NCBI RefSeq assembly: GCF_004364775.1
Contig: NZ_SOAL01000004.1
Location: 1 to 64,000, forward strand
Source of the DNA: Comamonas sp. JUb58
GTDB lineage: Bacteria; Pseudomonadota; Gammaproteobacteria; Burkholderiales; Burkholderiaceae_C
Direction: 5' to 3'
DNA: 64,000 bases
In this document: positions 2,612 to 41,974 of the stretch, one piece after another
How the letters are laid out: each line of letters begins with the position of its first letter
Position numbering within the stretch: position 1 is the stretch's first letter
The notes under the pieces: generated by a model
The model's database searches: none
Seen by the model: the letters and a program-made list of their open reading frames with translations, nothing else
Told to the model about the DNA's origin: nothing
Program-made: the position numbers and the translations under genes

Positions 2612-4012
2612 TCAGCGCTTTTGCAGTCTTTCGATAATTTTTTCACGACCGAGTAATGCAAGCACTGCGTCTACCGAAGGCGTATGGGCTGTACCCACGG
2701 CCAAAACACGCACCGGCATCGCCAGTTGCGGCATCTTCATGCCGTGTGCCTTGAGCACTTGCTTGAAGCCAGCGCTGATCGCTTCCTTGCTCCAATCACC
2801 CTCTTGCAGCACCTGCAGCAGCTCGTCGATCACCGGAATGATCTCGGGCGTTACATGGGTGCTCAGGTCTTCTGCGCTGGGCTGCACGTCCTTGTAGAAC
2901 ACCTGGGCCCATTGCGCCAGATCCACCAGGGTATCGCAGCGGTCTTTGAACAGCGCACAGATGCGTGGCAGGCGGCCATCGCCCACGGTGATGCTGTCCA
3001 GGCCCAGGTTCTTCAGGAACGGGGTCAGCATGGCGGCCAGTTCGTCATCGGGCGTCAGCTTCATGTGCTGGGCATTGACCCAGCGCAGCTTGGCCTCGTC
3101 GAACTGGCCCGCGCTGCGGCCCAGGTGGTCCAGGTTGAACCACTCCAGGAACTGCTGGCGCGAGAAGATTTCGTCATCGCCGTGGCTCCAGCCCAGGCGT
3201 GCCAGGTAGTTCACCATGGCATCGGCCAGGTAGCCTTCGTCGCGGTATTGGGTCACGGCCTTGGCGCCATTGCGCTTGCTCATCTTCTCGCCCTGCTCGT
3301 TGAGCACGGTGGGCAGGTGGGCAAACACGGGCACATCGGCACCCAGCGCTTCAAAAATGTGGATCTGGCGCGGCGTGTTGTTCACATGGTCGTCACCACG
3401 GATCACGTGGGTGATGGCCATGTCCATGTCATCGACGCAGACGCAGAAGTTGTAGGTCGGCGTGCCATCAGGGCGGGCAATGACCAGGTCATCCAGTTCC
3501 GAATTCTGGAACTCGATGCGGCCCTTGCACTTGTCTTCCCAGGCCACCACGCCGGTCAGCGGCGTCTTGAAACGCAGCACGGGCTTGACGCCTTCGGGCA
3601 CAGGCGGCAGCACCTTGCCTTCTTCGGGGCGCCAAGTGCCGTCATAGCGTGGCTTTTCCTTGTTGGCCATCTGCTTTTCACGCAGCGCGTCCAGCTCTTC
3701 CATGCTCATGTAGCAGGGGTAGACAGCACCCTTTTCTTGCAGCGTGGCCAGCACTTCCTTGTATCGGTCCATGCGCTGCATCTGGTAGAACGGGCCCTCA
3801 TTGGGGTCCAGTTGCAGCCAGGCCATGCCTTCCAGAATCACATCGACGGAGGCCTGGTTGGAGCGCTCCAGATCGGTGTCTTCGATGCGCAGGATGAAAT
3901 CGCCCTGGTTGGCGCGTGCAAAGGCCCAGGGGTAGAGGGCCGAGCGGATGTTGCCCAGGTGGATAAAGCCGGTAGGCGATGGGGCAAAACGGGTACGTAC
4001 TTTGGTGCTCAT
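2612..4012 (-). CDS. gltX: Glutamate--tRNA ligase
   Basis: A class I aminoacyl-tRNA synthetase of 466 residues, the usual bacterial length, which charges tRNA-Glu with glutamate in the cytoplasm. The HIGH-type motif is at about residues 11-21 ([11 protein letters not shown]) and the KMSKR loop at about 245. The ATG start overlaps the metZ stop by four bases (ATGA), so the two are translationally coupled. Downstream on the same strand is the tRNA array with four tRNA-Glu genes, which places the enzyme and its substrate RNA in one transcription unit. Linkage of gltX to tRNA-Ala(GGC) and tRNA-Glu genes is also known in gammaproteobacteria. Confidence 0.97.
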
Positions 4013-5223
4013 GTCAGGGTATCCAGGCCGCGCAACAGGTCGGCTTTCAAATCATCCAGGTGTTCCAGGCCGACGGAAATGCGGATCAGGCCCTGGCCCA
4101 CGCCAGCGGACTGGCGCTGCTCTTCGGTCAGGCGGCCATGCGAGGTACTGGCCGGGTGGGTGATCGTGGTCTTCACATCACCCAGGTTGGCCGTGATCGA
4201 GCACAGCAAGGTGCTGTCGACCACATGGAAGGCATTGGCGCGCAGCTGTTCCGCGCCCTCACCCACCACATCAAAGGCCAGCACGGCGCCGCCCATGCCA
4301 TTTTGCTGGCGCATCGCCAGCGCATGCTGCGGGTGGCTTTCCAGACCAGGGTAGTACACCCGTGCCACCTTGGGATGCGCCTCCAGCCAGCGTGCCAGCT
4401 CCAGCGCCGCAGCGCTTTCGGCCTTCACACGCAGGGACAGGGTCTCCATACCCTTCATCACCACCCAGGCGTTAAAAGGCGAGAGGTTCAGACCCCCACT
4501 GCGCAGGAAGGTACCCATGACCTTGTCGACCAGCGCGACGGTGCCGCAGACGGCGCCGGCCATCACACGGCCCTGGCCATCGAGGAACTTGGTGCCCGAA
4601 TGCACCACCAGATCAGCGCCCAGCTTGGCCGGTTGCTGCAGCACGGGGGTGGCAAAGCTGTTGTCCACCGCCAGCAGGGCGCCATGCGCATGGGCGATGT
4701 CGGCCAGCGCGGCAATGTCGCACAGATCGGTCAGCGGGTTGGTCGGCGTCTCGGCAAACAGCATGCGCGTGTTGGGCCGGATGGCGGCCTTCCAGGCTTC
4801 CACATCGGTTTGCGACACAAAGCTGGTTTCCACGCCAAAGCGGGCCATCTCGGTGCCCAGCAGCTTGATCGTCGAGCCGAACATGGACTGCGAGCAGATC
4901 ACATGGTCACCGGTCTTCAGCACGGTCAGGGCCACCAGCAAGATGGCGGACATGCCGGTCGAGGTGGCGATGGCGCACTCGGTGCCTTCCATCGCGGCCA
5001 GGCGGCGCTCAAAGCTGGTCACCGTGGGGTTGCCAGTGCGGGTGTAGGTGTAGCCCTCTTCCAGCGCGGCAAAGCGGCGCGCGGCCGTCTCGGCATTGGG
5101 TTGCACAAAGCTGCTGGCCAGGTACAGGGCTTCGCTGTGCTCGCCCCATTGGCTGCGCTCCACCGCCTCACGGACCGCCAAGGTATCGGGATGCAGGCCC
5201 GGCGGCAATTTCTTATCAGTCAT
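4009..5223 (-). CDS. metZ: O-succinylhomoserine sulfhydrylase
   Basis: A PLP enzyme of the Cys/Met metabolism family (404 residues from the chosen ATG) that makes homocysteine from O-succinylhomoserine and sulfide in methionine biosynthesis. The YTRTGNPT motif and the PLP lysine in SGTKF (about residue 210) are present. The ATG at 5223 follows a GGGAAGAAG site; an upstream in-frame TTG at 5235 is less likely. It lies between purF and gltX in a leftward operon, an order known from Burkholderiales and Pseudomonas. Cystathionine gamma-synthase is the close alternative, but the context and sequence favour MetZ. Confidence 0.93.
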
Positions 5224-38986: not shown

Positions 38987-39988
38987 TCAGTCAAACGCGG
39001 CGCGCAGCGCCTGGGCCATCTGCGCATGGCAGGCCCGCGCTTCCTTGAGCGCACGGCCCATTTTCACAAACTCATGGGCCACGCCGGCATAGGTGTGCAG
39101 CTCTACATCGATGCCGGCAGCGCGCAAGCGTTCGGCATACATGACGCCCTCGTCCACCAGCGAATCGCATTGCGCCAGGTGGATGCTGGCAGGGGCCAGG
39201 CCGCGCAGATCCCGCGCCAGCAAGGGCGCAAAACGCCAGTCTTCGCGGTCGGCCAGCGAGCGCAGGTAGTTGCTGAACATCCAGCTGATCATCGGCTTGG
39301 TGAGGATCGGGCCCTCGCTGTAGCGGGCATGCGAAGGCGTGTCCTGGTGGGCCGCGCAACCGGGGTAGATCAGCAGCTGCAGGGCCAGGTCGATACCGGC
39401 ATCGCGCGCCAGGATGGCGTTGACCGCCGCCAAGGTGCCGCCGGCGCTGTCGCCACCTACAGCCACACGGCCGGTATCGGCACCGAGTGACATGCCTTCG
39501 GCCACCAGCCACTGCAAGGCATCCCAGGCATCGTTGCTGGCGGTGGGAAAGCGGTGCTCGGGCGCCAGCCGGTAGTCCACCGAGACAACCATGCATCCCG
39601 CTTGGTGGGCCAGCTCGCGGCACAGCGTGTCATGCGTGTCCACACTGCCGATCGTGAAGCCGCCGCCATGGGTGAACAGCAAGACCGGTTGCAGCGGATC
39701 CCAGCTGGCCGCATAGAGGCGTGCTGATATCTGAAAACCATCGCGCGCAGGGATGTGCAAATCCTCAACGCGCGCCAGCTCGGGCTTGGCAATCTCCAGC
39801 ACCCCGGCGCCGATGCCATAGGCCTGGCGCGCCTGCTCCACCGTCATCTCCCACATGGGGGTGTGCTGGGCGCGAGCCATGCGCTCGACCACGCTGCGCA
39901 TCGTGGGGGTCAGCTCGGCGATCACATCGGCAGGCATGGGCAGTTCGGCGGGGAGATGGGCTTTGGAGCGGGCTGGGACGTCAGACAT
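38987..39988 (-). CDS. Alpha/beta hydrolase, HSL-type esterase
   Basis: 333 residues from the ATG at 39988. The oxyanion motif HGGGF (about residue 97), the nucleophile elbow GDSAGG (about residue 168) and a late Asp/His pair (GVAHEFVKM) define the hormone-sensitive-lipase family. It would hydrolyse short-chain esters in the cytoplasm; no signal peptide is present. It lies 59 bp upstream of the thioesterase-GNAT gene on the same strand, so they may form a small acyl-ester operon. Confidence 0.88.
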   Translation of the reverse strand: MSDVPARSKAHLPAELPMPADVIAELTPTMRSVVERMARAQHTPMWEMTVEQARQAYGIGAGVLEIAKPELARVEDLHIPARDGFQISARLYAASWDPLQPVLLFTHGGGFTIGSVDTHDTLCRELAHQAGCMVVSVDYRLAPEHRFPTASNDAWDALQWLVAEGMSLGADTGRVAVGGDSAGGTLAAVNAILARDAGIDLALQLLIYPGCAAHQDTPSHARYSEGPILTKPMISWMFSNYLRSLADREDWRFAPLLARDLRGLAPASIHLAQCDSLVDEGVMYAERLRAAGIDVELHTYAGVAHEFVKMGRALKEARACHAQMAQALRAAFD

Positions 39989-40086
39989 AGATCGTGGCCC
40001 CGCAGGCATGCAGGGGCGCAGTTCAGGGAAAGGGCCGGCTGATTATCAGCCATTGGCCAATCACAATGGGGCGCGTCGGTCACCTA

Positions 40087-40247
40087 GGGATCCTCTGCAA
40101 AACTCCCTGCCGTAGTCTGAACGCAGTCTCGGGCGATCCGCTGCGTTGTCTTCCTTGTCAATAGCTCGCTATTGACTGCAAAAGACGCCTTGCGACTCAT
40201 CCCGATCTGCGTCCATCCCGCTGGGCGAGGGTTTTGCAGAGCATCCC
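40087..40247. repeat. 161-bp full-length palindromic (MITE-like) element
   Basis: The ends GGGATCCTCTGCAAAAC and GTTTTGCAGAGCATCCC match in 16 of 17 inverted bases. The centre is a perfect hairpin, GTCAATAG-CTCG-CTATTGAC (about 40159-40178). The two halves also resemble each other in reverse complement in between, for example GAACGCAGTCTCGGG against GGACGCAGATCGGG, so the whole can fold as one long stem. It has no coding capacity. This is the build of a non-autonomous transposable or REP-type element; no other copy was noticed in the window. Confidence 0.65.
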
Positions 40248-40251
40248 TTGT

Positions 40252-40280
40252 AAAAAAGGCCCTGCCGATTGGCAGAGCCC
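40252..40280 (-). terminator. Terminator after the exported hydratase-like gene
   Basis: Read leftward, stem GGCTCTGCC and GGCAGGGCC (40271-40279 with 40258-40266, one G-U pair), then six T. It abuts the palindromic element. Confidence 0.75.
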
Positions 40281-40305
40281 CTCATCAAAGCCTGCTGCAG
40301 GCTAG

Positions 40306-41193
40306 TTATTCGAAGCGCAGCTCCACCGGCTGCGCACCATCCAGTCCCTTGTAGTCCACCCGGATCTGCTGGCCTGGCTGGGGCGGCATCAGCGCCGAGT
40401 ACGAGCCCAGGCTGATCCAGTCGCCCACCTTGAGCCGCTGCCCTTCGGCCTTGAGGGCCTGGGCCAGCCAGACCACGGCATTGAGCGGCTGGCCCATCAG
40501 ATCACCGCCGCGCCCACCGCCCAGCCGCGCGCCGCTCTGGTCGGTGACATCGACCTGCATGCTCTGCAGCGCATTCAGGAGCGCATAGCGCTCGGCCCGG
40601 AACTGCGGCACGGCCATCGCATTGCCCATCACGCCCATGCGGGCGCCGACATTCATCGCTTCCACGGCCGCGCCATCAAGCTGCGCCGGGTTCGCCACCA
40701 CCAGGTCGGGCAGCTCGACAAAGGGAACGATGCGGTCGATGTTGTTGAGCACCTGCAGCGGCGTGGTGGCGCGGTTGATCGCACTGCTGGAGACGCGCAC
40801 CAGCATGTCCGCCTCAAACATGGGCCGCGCGCCAAAGGCGGCAGGCACCGTGCTGCGGTTGGGCAGCAAGGCACCTTCGTACAGCACGCCCCATACCGGC
40901 TTGTCAGTCTGAAAGCGCTTTTGCATGGCCGCGCTGGTCAGCCCGGCCTTGTAGCCAATGGGCTTCTTGCCCTGGGCCAGCCAGGCGGCATTGAGCTTGT
41001 TGCGGCTGCACTTGCCATCGGCCTCGGTCATCGCAGCGGCTGCGGGCACGGGCTGCTTGGCCTCATAGGCCTGCAGCCACTGCGCGACCTGGGCATCATC
41101 CAGGCAAGCGGCCTGGGCCAAGCCACTGCCGGCAGCCAGACCAGCGGCCAGCCAGAGCGGGGAGAGACGAAAACGCAAAGCGGGGTGCATCAT
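40306..41193 (-). CDS. Exported 2-keto-4-pentenoate hydratase-like protein (FAH superfamily)
   Basis: 295 residues from the ATG at 41193, which follows AGGAGACTTT. It begins with a clear signal peptide (hydrophobic core LWLAAGLAAGSGLAQA, cut near residue 29). The rest aligns in pattern with MhpD/2-oxopent-4-enoate hydratases: GYKAGLTSAAMQKRF, the acidic patch around MFEADMLVRV, and a late GDWISLGSYS. Cytoplasmic relatives act in aromatic meta-cleavage paths. An exported copy is unusual, and no other aromatic gene adjoins it. Catalytic activity is uncertain. Confidence 0.78.
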   Translation of the reverse strand: MMHPALRFRLSPLWLAAGLAAGSGLAQAACLDDAQVAQWLQAYEAKQPVPAAAAMTEADGKCSRNKLNAAWLAQGKKPIGYKAGLTSAAMQKRFQTDKPVWGVLYEGALLPNRSTVPAAFGARPMFEADMLVRVSSSAINRATTPLQVLNNIDRIVPFVELPDLVVANPAQLDGAAVEAMNVGARMGVMGNAMAVPQFRAERYALLNALQSMQVDVTDQSGARLGGGRGGDLMGQPLNAVVWLAQALKAEGQRLKVGDWISLGSYSALMPPQPGQQIRVDYKGLDGAQPVELRFE

Positions 41194-41416
41194 CCAAAGT
41201 CTCCTGTTCCAAGAACCTGTTCTGAATGCGGTTGTGTAGACCGCCCCGGGCACCAACATACCACCCGCGCTGCAGGGCCTGACTAGGGAAAGCGCGCAGC
41301 TTGCGCGGAGCATCGACCACGGACCCCGTTTTGCTTGATGCAGGTCATGCCGCCATAGCCACAAAGCAACAGACGCTATAGTATTTGCATGATCCACCTG
41401 CAATAGGAGACCCAAC

Positions 41417-41974
41417 ATGCGCACTGTTTATGAGCCGGCCAGCGCCGTGCAAGCCCATGTTCTGCAGGACGTGCTGCGCCAGCACGGCATCAGCAGCTTT
41501 GTCAGCGGCGAGCACCTGCAAGGGGCCATTGGCGAACTGCCCGCTGGCAGCCTGGTGCGGCTGCTGGTCGACGACGCCGATTGGGCGCCGGCCCGCCGCG
41601 CGCTGGAAGAATGGGAGCGCGCGCCGCTGATCGACGATGCCGAACTGGCCCTGGCCGACCCCAGCCTGGCCGAGCAGGCGCCGGCTGAGCCCCGCCATGA
41701 CCCGCGCTTTGACCTGGCCTGCGACCCGCGCGAGCGCGCCAGCGCTGATCGAGACGGCGAACAGGAAGCCTACAGCGATGCCCGGCGCTGGTACCCCTGC
41801 TGGTGGGCTGGGGCTGCGGCATTGCTGGCCTTGTGCCTGCACTATCTGCTGGGTGGCGTGCCGCAGCCGGATGCCGCTGCGAGCGCGGGTGCAGCCGAGC
41901 AGGCACAGCAGGCCTCGGATGCCGCATCAGACAACGGTGAACGCCAGCGCGCGGAACCATCCGGCAGCCGCTGA
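41417..41974 (+). CDS. DUF2007-type protein with C-terminal membrane anchor
   Basis: 185 residues. Residues 1-65 form a DUF2007 (putative signal-transducing) domain: MRTVYEPASAVQAHVLQ, then a strand ending VRLLVDDADW. A polar, Asp/Glu/Arg-rich linker follows (70-120), then one membrane helix (about 127-147, CWWAGAAALLALCLHYLL) and a polar tail. The family has no proven function. The ATG follows AATAGGAGACCC. It lies between the divergent hydratase-like gene and the acyl-CoA ligase. Confidence 0.7.
   Translation: MRTVYEPASAVQAHVLQDVLRQHGISSFVSGEHLQGAIGELPAGSLVRLLVDDADWAPARRALEEWERAPLIDDAELALADPSLAEQAPAEPRHDPRFDLACDPRERASADRDGEQEAYSDARRWYPCWWAGAAALLALCLHYLLGGVPQPDAAASAGAAEQAQQASDAASDNGERQRAEPSGSR

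Follow-up and report, generated by a model that had tools for sequence, protein, structure and literature searches.

IS5-group MITEs are already known. The literature on the IS5 family and MITEs includes a paper on a Porphyromonas MITE (PMC4596501), and YTAR is given as the target motif of IS5 in the available portion of PMC10359306. For the Correia/NEMIS repeats of Neisseria, processing by RNase III is reported in the accessible text of PMC2229807 and PMC10969869. In the open literature on Comamonas and Comamonadaceae MITEs, nothing among the matches listed was relevant by title or abstract, and among the matches listed for palindromic intergenic repeats, including PMC2267715 and PMC5896051 as far as their accessible text extends, there was no Comamonas.

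The element analyzed here lies in a window of 64,000 nucleotides, the whole stretch of DNA studied, from Comamonas sp. JUb58 (G000 in our genome set). Neither its family nor its core was found in Rfam 15 or in the open literature, which takes in few subscription papers and no ISfinder entries, and the family may carry another name; strings of core sequence also gave no match in the open literature. We consider it probable, at about 0.72, that this is an IS5-group MITE moved by an IS5-type transposase and bearing the core of a wider superfamily that is kept by selection on its fold. The window family taken alone is one more IS5-group MITE. The unexpected finding is that the middle of the element is conserved across element types with differing ends, in dozens of genera, with several genomes holding at least 10 copies.

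The initial annotation described a 161-bp palindrome at 40087-40247 with paired ends and a perfect central hairpin, lacking a coding frame and placed next to a terminator between two genes, and most of this description held. The sequence at 40087-40103 (GGGATCCTCTGCAAAAC) and the reverse complement of 40231-40247 (GGGATGCTCTGCAAAAC) agree at 16 of 17 positions, the central hairpin lies where it was described, gene calling gave no gene over this copy, and the flanking ORFs (38987-40009 and 40306-41424) are both on the minus strand. The coordinates were trimmed: alignment of the copies defines the ends as CTAG followed by GGA..CTCTGCAAAAC, and the mobile unit is 159 bp long (Table 1). The adjacent terminator was borne out in part, in that a hairpin with a T run is present (GGGGCTCTGCC-AATC-GGCAGGGCC-TTTTTT, minus strand), whereas a scan for consensus promoters and terminators around the element reported nothing, this hairpin included.

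The element is an imperfect palindrome with a perfect hairpin in its centre. For its plus strand the fold energy is -76.8 kcal/mol (z = -6.3), which none of 200 dinucleotide shuffles equalled. Among 20 diverse copies of the family (set A1, consisting of 19 of 100 copies picked for diversity and the window copy trimmed by 3 bp), 17 of 48 pairs showed double changes, compared to 3.8 in shuffles, and 95.3% of cells paired, compared to 36-50% in slid structures. Several genomes contain a short form of 90-100 bp alongside the long form. Because the short forms join at an 8-bp repeat, GCGGATCG, which brackets the central ~70 bp of the long form, they likely would have arisen by slippage or recombination between the 8-bp repeats.

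Table 1. Features of the window element and its flanks (positions in the 64,000-nucleotide window).
Feature	Position	Strand	Basis or remark
Left target-duplication copy (CTAG)	40084-40087		A length of 4 bp suits the 97 copies tested; the most frequent flank is CTAG
Left terminal inverted repeat GGATCCTCTGCAAAAC	40088-40103	+	Same kind of end as in the IS5-family elements of L063 and L076
MITE, long form, 159 bp	40088-40246	+	33 near-full-length copies in the genome, this one counted
Conserved core hairpin	40131-40200	-	Covariance model R2, without window-family rows: 53.5 bits, E 1.4e-10
First 8-bp direct repeat CGATCCGC	40134-40141	+	Junction point in the short forms
Central perfect hairpin GTCAATAG-CTCG-CTATTGAC	40157-40176		Covaries among copies
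Second 8-bp direct repeat CGATCTGC, one mismatch in window copy	40203-40210	+	Putative role, from the short forms
Right terminal inverted repeat GGATGCTCTGCAAAAC (minus strand)	40231-40246	-	End comparison
Right target-duplication copy (CTTG, one change from CTAG)	40247-40250		Sequence, orthologous locus and flank test
Terminator-like hairpin, outside the element, after gene 40306-41424	about 40252-40282	-	Fold -21.6 kcal/mol

The initial annotation proposed a non-autonomous repeat family, mobile or regulatory, and the mobile reading is supported. The proposal hinged on a second copy in some Comamonas genome, and such copies proved plentiful. The JUb58 genome (5.46 Mb in 60 contigs) holds 33 near-full-length copies including the window one, 79-100% identical, plus some partial copies, and the motif GGNNNCTCTGCAAAAC occurs there 116 + 120 times with up to 2 mismatches, compared to 30 + 38 times when the pattern is reversed as a control. 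Nine of the 61 genomes searched (own and relatives) matched, all from one genus; the eight carriers other than JUb58 had 1 to 44 matches apiece, partial copies counted, and two of the genomes, G011 and G005, match the window element solely through diverged copies (70-73%). An exact 31-base stretch scanned across named genomes was found at 38 places, all in Comamonas (Comamonas sp. B21-038, sp. BIGb0152, koreensis and odontotermitis). A search of a plasmid collection returned one record, a partial copy in Comamonas odontotermitis NZ_CP083452.1.

Direct duplications of 4 bp, a sign of transposition that the initial annotation had named as a check, were seen across the copies. The left and right flanking 4-mers were identical in 43 of 97 copies, compared to 23.4 ± 2.9 in shuffles; this test covered 97 of 100 copies, with 3 lacking a recognisable anchor omitted, and includes several orthologues from different genomes, so that the 97 are not all independent. 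Among copies without CTAG on either side, 10 of 37 still had identical flanks (2.0 ± 1.3 when shuffled; 0 of 5000 shuffles reached this), and duplications of 2, 3, 5 or 6 bp at the same boundary were found in 0, 3, 1 and 0 of the 97 copies, respectively. The target of the family is a 4-bp YTAR sequence, most often CTAG, which is present next to the left end in 48 and next to the right end in 45 of the 97 copies. In the five blocks counted, CTAG occurs 4-7 times less often than expected from base composition, so its frequency at the flanks reflects a genuine target preference. Some copies lie head to tail with one CTAG-type site between two neighbours, and copies in G011 and G017 adjoin an IS end, both of which are expected if a duplicated site serves again as a target. 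One G017 locus (L138, C1:3882901-3883392) contains three tandem MITE copies, with adjacent copies using one common 4-bp site.

Insertions are polymorphic between related species, and empty sites are found. Of eight aligned orthologues of the window locus, those of G000, G067 and G013 carry the insertion, those of G031, G017 and G019 are empty, and those of G007 and G068 are too diverged to call. Because the empty orthologues read CCATGT, which is neither CTAG nor CTTG, the duplication is unreadable at this locus. Elsewhere, the filled copy at G000 C4:198383 is flanked by CTAG/CTTG and the empty site of G031 reads CTTG. Two other empty sites mismatch the duplicated sequence: TTTG for flanks CTAG/CTAG (G017 block position 380389) and TTGG for flanks TTAG/TTAG (block position 295993). 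The site common to G000 C4:158551, G017 and G013 is read more readily as a 3-bp than as a 4-bp duplication against G031.

A transposase with the same terminal sequence, which the initial annotation had suggested looking for, was found as an IS5-family DDE gene between matching ends at two loci, L063 and L076. In G019 (L076, 1098-2258), an intact IS of about 1.16 kb with CTAG on both sides and ends GGGAAACTCTGCAAAACG and GGGAAGGTCTGCAAAACC encodes, at 1150-2121, a 323-aa transposase that matches NF033581 (IS5 family) at 320 bits as well as PF01609 and PF05598. The JUb58 genome holds its IS5-family transposase (IS5_4 type) only in decayed pieces; those at G000 C8 (L063, about 3720-4580) are flanked by CTAG on both sides, and the right end of this decayed IS is GTTTTGCAGAGGATCCCTAG, with GTTTTGCAGAGGATCC as in the MITE consensus. 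Beside it, an ORF at 4749-5252 of L063 (G000 C8, about 55.2-55.8 kb) is TIR-domain-like by eye and is possibly a defence gene. With the G019 transposase as query, six of ten genomes (G000, G067 and the eight other carriers) matched and four were without a match, with G007 having a 375-aa open frame that is 58% identical over part of its length. Since a clearly intact copy is present in G019 alone among these ten genomes, the MITEs seem to have persisted after the decay or loss of most of the elements that were their likely partners. A simple internal deletion of the IS was rejected as the origin of the MITE, as the resemblance to the IS is confined to the ends.

These results also bear on whether the element is instead of the REP/REPIN type and moved by a RAYT (Y1 transposase). 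Such elements are likewise palindromic, intergenic and multi-copy, and some distant relatives of the core occur as two inverted copies separated by about 100 bp, but the 4-bp direct target duplications, the 16-17 bp terminal repeats and the presence of these ends on a DDE element of the IS5 family make this reading very improbable. Classification by the 20-40 bp palindrome of REPs, as given in the abstract of PMC3733652, was also tried and rejected, since the unit here is 159 bp and has direct target duplications.

From the copies, ends, target duplications, empty sites and matching IS ends, all of which are observed, we infer the act of transposition. Under the favoured reading, an IS5-family DDE transposase of the IS5_4 type would have recognised the 16-17 bp ends of the MITE in trans and would have inserted it at YTAR sites, preferably CTAG, with duplication of 4 bp. 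This part of the reading follows established IS biology and the tests above, from which mobilisation in trans is predicted. The ends may drift toward whichever IS5-type transposase is at hand, while selection on the fold may preserve the core, whether as RNA in read-through transcripts or as a DNA hairpin in replication or transposition.

The core hairpin (~55-71 bp) recurs in elements bearing at least four other terminal repeats. With a diverged Comamonas relative from G011 (L046) as query, matches were found in 92 of 250 genomes of the bacterial family, representing 64 of 141 genera, and were often limited to the central 55 bp, at identities up to 100%. Reading of 40 loci from this search gave end type A, GGANNCTCTGCA; the other end types were A3, GGAACCTCTGAACAA; B, GGCAACGCTGAAYAAG; D, CTAG-TGCRGYGTTC-like and heterogeneous; and F and G, GGAACGYGTTTACG and GAACCTGTTCAAA, each represented by one locus. 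For types C and E, a matching right end was sought and not found. Several ends of the core-bearing elements have CTAG or similar flanks. A search for ends at 51 loci, window-family copies included, detected spans of 150-171 bp in 40, other spans in 8 and none in 3, and seven of 28 class-level loci had ends resembling those of IS5, for example GGAACCTCTGATTTATTC, and gave spans of 149-168 bp.

Two further arrangements of the core were observed. In the JUb58 genome, a longer repeat with the same core occurs on C1, C2, C5 and C18 (L394, L397, L374-L376), with AGAACGTGTTTACGATCTCC or a near sequence as its left end; a matching right end for it was not found at these loci, and the repeat is possibly composite. 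In distant genomes (L428, L438, L439, L445, L451 and others), two cores often face each other in inverted orientation at a distance of about 100 bp, an architecture unlike that of the 160-bp MITE.

The link between the window element and this superfamily was examined with a covariance model (R2, from set A4) of 28 cores that contains no window-family row and in which each row was found letter for letter in a locus. In the window, R2 found only the core copy of Table 1 before a next match at E 2.2. On the G000 C4 and C8 stretches searched it found the window copy together with 10 further long ones, which are all 11 of the 11 expected from the copy list, and one additional place, and it also recovered the relatives from G007 and G030. 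With a sequence-only profile of the same 28 cores, the window copy had an E of 0.018; six sister or related copies ranged from 1.2e-7 to 0.04, G030 reached 0.00031 and the second L012 copy 0.21. The letter identity between the window core and cores of other types is 0.47-0.64, a direct sequence match of the window element to G011 has an E of 3.8e-5, and the G030 core is intermediate, with an identity of 0.80 to the window and 0.65 to G011. Because letter similarity is weak, the link of the window element to the superfamily rests on structure, on the better-scoring sister copies and on the direct G011 matches. By structure, R2 places the window element within the core-hairpin superfamily.

To cover a wider range of genomes we used model R1, whose 33 rows, like those of set A2 (33 hand-chosen loci of 51), include the window copy and four relatives; its scores for the window family are thus partly by construction, whereas A4 and R2 omit these five rows. 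The G030 row of A2 and R1 deviates from its locus at the 5' end (a typing error), which the figures derived from either carry. R1 found 53 places in the JUb58 genome; by comparison with the copy list, 32 of them belong to the window family and the remaining 21 do not. At E <= 1e-5 it matched 64 of 369 genomes (50 of 271 genera) drawn from the class and 40 of 398 genomes (25 of 212 genera) drawn from the phylum, the latter draw overlapping the former and including 27 matches among 338 good-quality genomes. This core model allows a large repeat superfamily to be located and masked.

Conservation within these elements is concentrated in the core. In the independent core set, A4, 13 of 22 pairs showed double changes and 98.5% of cells paired, compared to 89.4% in shuffles and at most 45.9% in slid structures. 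In 42 model-chosen matches from 28 class-level loci, C(A)AGGCG and CAACG hardly vary, while compensatory changes occur in the stems; CAAGGCG and CAACG are core letters that are mostly unpaired in the model. Across seven types, which were hand-chosen and of which F and G are single loci, the core had a mean ungapped identity of 0.81, the inner arms one of 0.53-0.54 and the outer parts one of 0.36-0.38, although the statement that the core is most conserved carries an ascertainment bias, because elements with other ends are findable only through the core. Within type D, which spans five genera, core identity was 0.95, compared to 0.66-0.70 in the inner arms; within types A and B the excess was smaller (0.88-0.89 versus 0.70-0.78).

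The shared core, the differing ends and the covariation are observed, and from them we infer the reason for the conservation of the core. An ordinary explanation, which we regard as doubtful, is that the element is an orphan MITE whose core is the oldest part of one lineage that spread across genera by horizontal transfer, with self-complementarity maintained not by function but by template-directed repair of DNA hairpins. Consistent with this, core sets that were not selected with an RNA model show many double Watson-Crick changes and few G-U intermediates (one pair of the independent set has GC 12, CG 9, AU 6 and GU 1), and set A2, with the error noted above, has 6 G-U and 4 A-C cells, showing no bias, as would be expected from hairpin-templated correction. 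By eye, the ends of types A, A3 and B also look graded. Such repair, however, leaves unexplained both the conservation of the mostly unpaired CAAGGCG and CAACG and the identity excess of the type D core over its inner arms in five genera.

A different possibility, which we put forward tentatively and at somewhat less than even odds, is that the core is an exchangeable functional module, such that IS5-type MITE families across the phylum, whether unrelated or strongly diverged, would retain one ~55-bp core. The unpaired letters would then be near-invariant while ends and arms turn over, and the core may be recognised by a host factor. This would be the reverse of the usual MITE, in which the ends are the conserved part, and a host factor that recognises the core would, if this holds, make these MITEs successful. 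If the core is functional, it offers one testable 55-bp hairpin bearing on MITE success and on how hosts use or tolerate these elements.

The genomic placement of the copies bears on a further explanation, namely that the hairpin is a conserved RNA or regulatory element (a small RNA, a processing site or part of a 3' UTR) that is maintained because it affects neighbouring genes, with mobility incidental. Element midpoints fell in called genes in 4 of 32 cases (32 of 41 merged matches, those with a score over 40), compared to 71% of random positions, and in a second set in 0 of 49 loci, 8 of which had no gene called on one side. Because the genes were called by our own GC3 rule, which found only 66-75% coding in the midpoint test, some of the copies counted as intergenic may be misjudged. 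The mostly intergenic placement, the strong covariation and the greater stability of the minus-strand fold in 97 of 100 copies are in keeping with a regulatory role. The insertions, however, are polymorphic between related species, and single copies are therefore not retained; in tandem contexts the elements show no preferred orientation to transcription (13 opposite, 11 same); and Rfam 15 gave no match for the element or for the cores of 27 other loci, the matches listed lying outside the cores and below gathering. We consider this explanation unlikely.

Evidence for an RNA role of the core itself is mixed. The loops on the plus strand of the window are of the tetraloop classes C-UNCG-G and G-CUYG-C, with exceptions. 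G-U cells outnumbered A-C cells 41 to 4 in set A3, which was selected by an RNA model, and 97 to 42 on the minus strand of the window family with four G011 copies, which are related copies. Strand-specific RNA selection was thus considered and is not claimed: the loop types point to the plus strand and the fold energies to the minus strand, and the G-U bias is confined to related or RNA-model-selected sets. Selection on the folded form, as RNA or as DNA, stays within the favoured reading.

Membership of the Correia/NEMIS family was rejected, the window MITE having the ends GGATCCTCTGCAAAAC and a 4-bp YTAR target, whereas Correia/NEMIS elements have another terminal sequence and a TA target. 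There is nonetheless a likeness in architecture, as Correia/NEMIS elements have 155-bp and 107-bp forms and a hairpin (accessible parts of PMC2229807 and PMC10969869), compared to forms of 159 and 90-100 bp here. MITEAba12 of Acinetobacter is similarly a small non-autonomous element with terminal repeats common with a resident IS, but it is 111-114 bp long with a 9-bp duplication and other ends, and the accessible part of PMC6382973 does not describe a core common to MITE families. RUP of pneumococcus is, like the window family, a MITE family tied to a resident IS by common ends; it differs in being of IS630 type, with a TA target and a length of 107 bp (PMC2229807, accessible part). Relative to the IS5 group itself, the MITE lacks a transposase and has only the ends in common, whereas the likeness includes ends that start with GG, the 4-bp YTAR/CTAG duplication, and NF033581 and PF01609 in elements with the same ends. 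The window family thus presents the features of an IS5-group MITE: a short multi-copy element with inverted repeats, a 4-bp YTAR duplication, IS5-family ends and insertion polymorphism.
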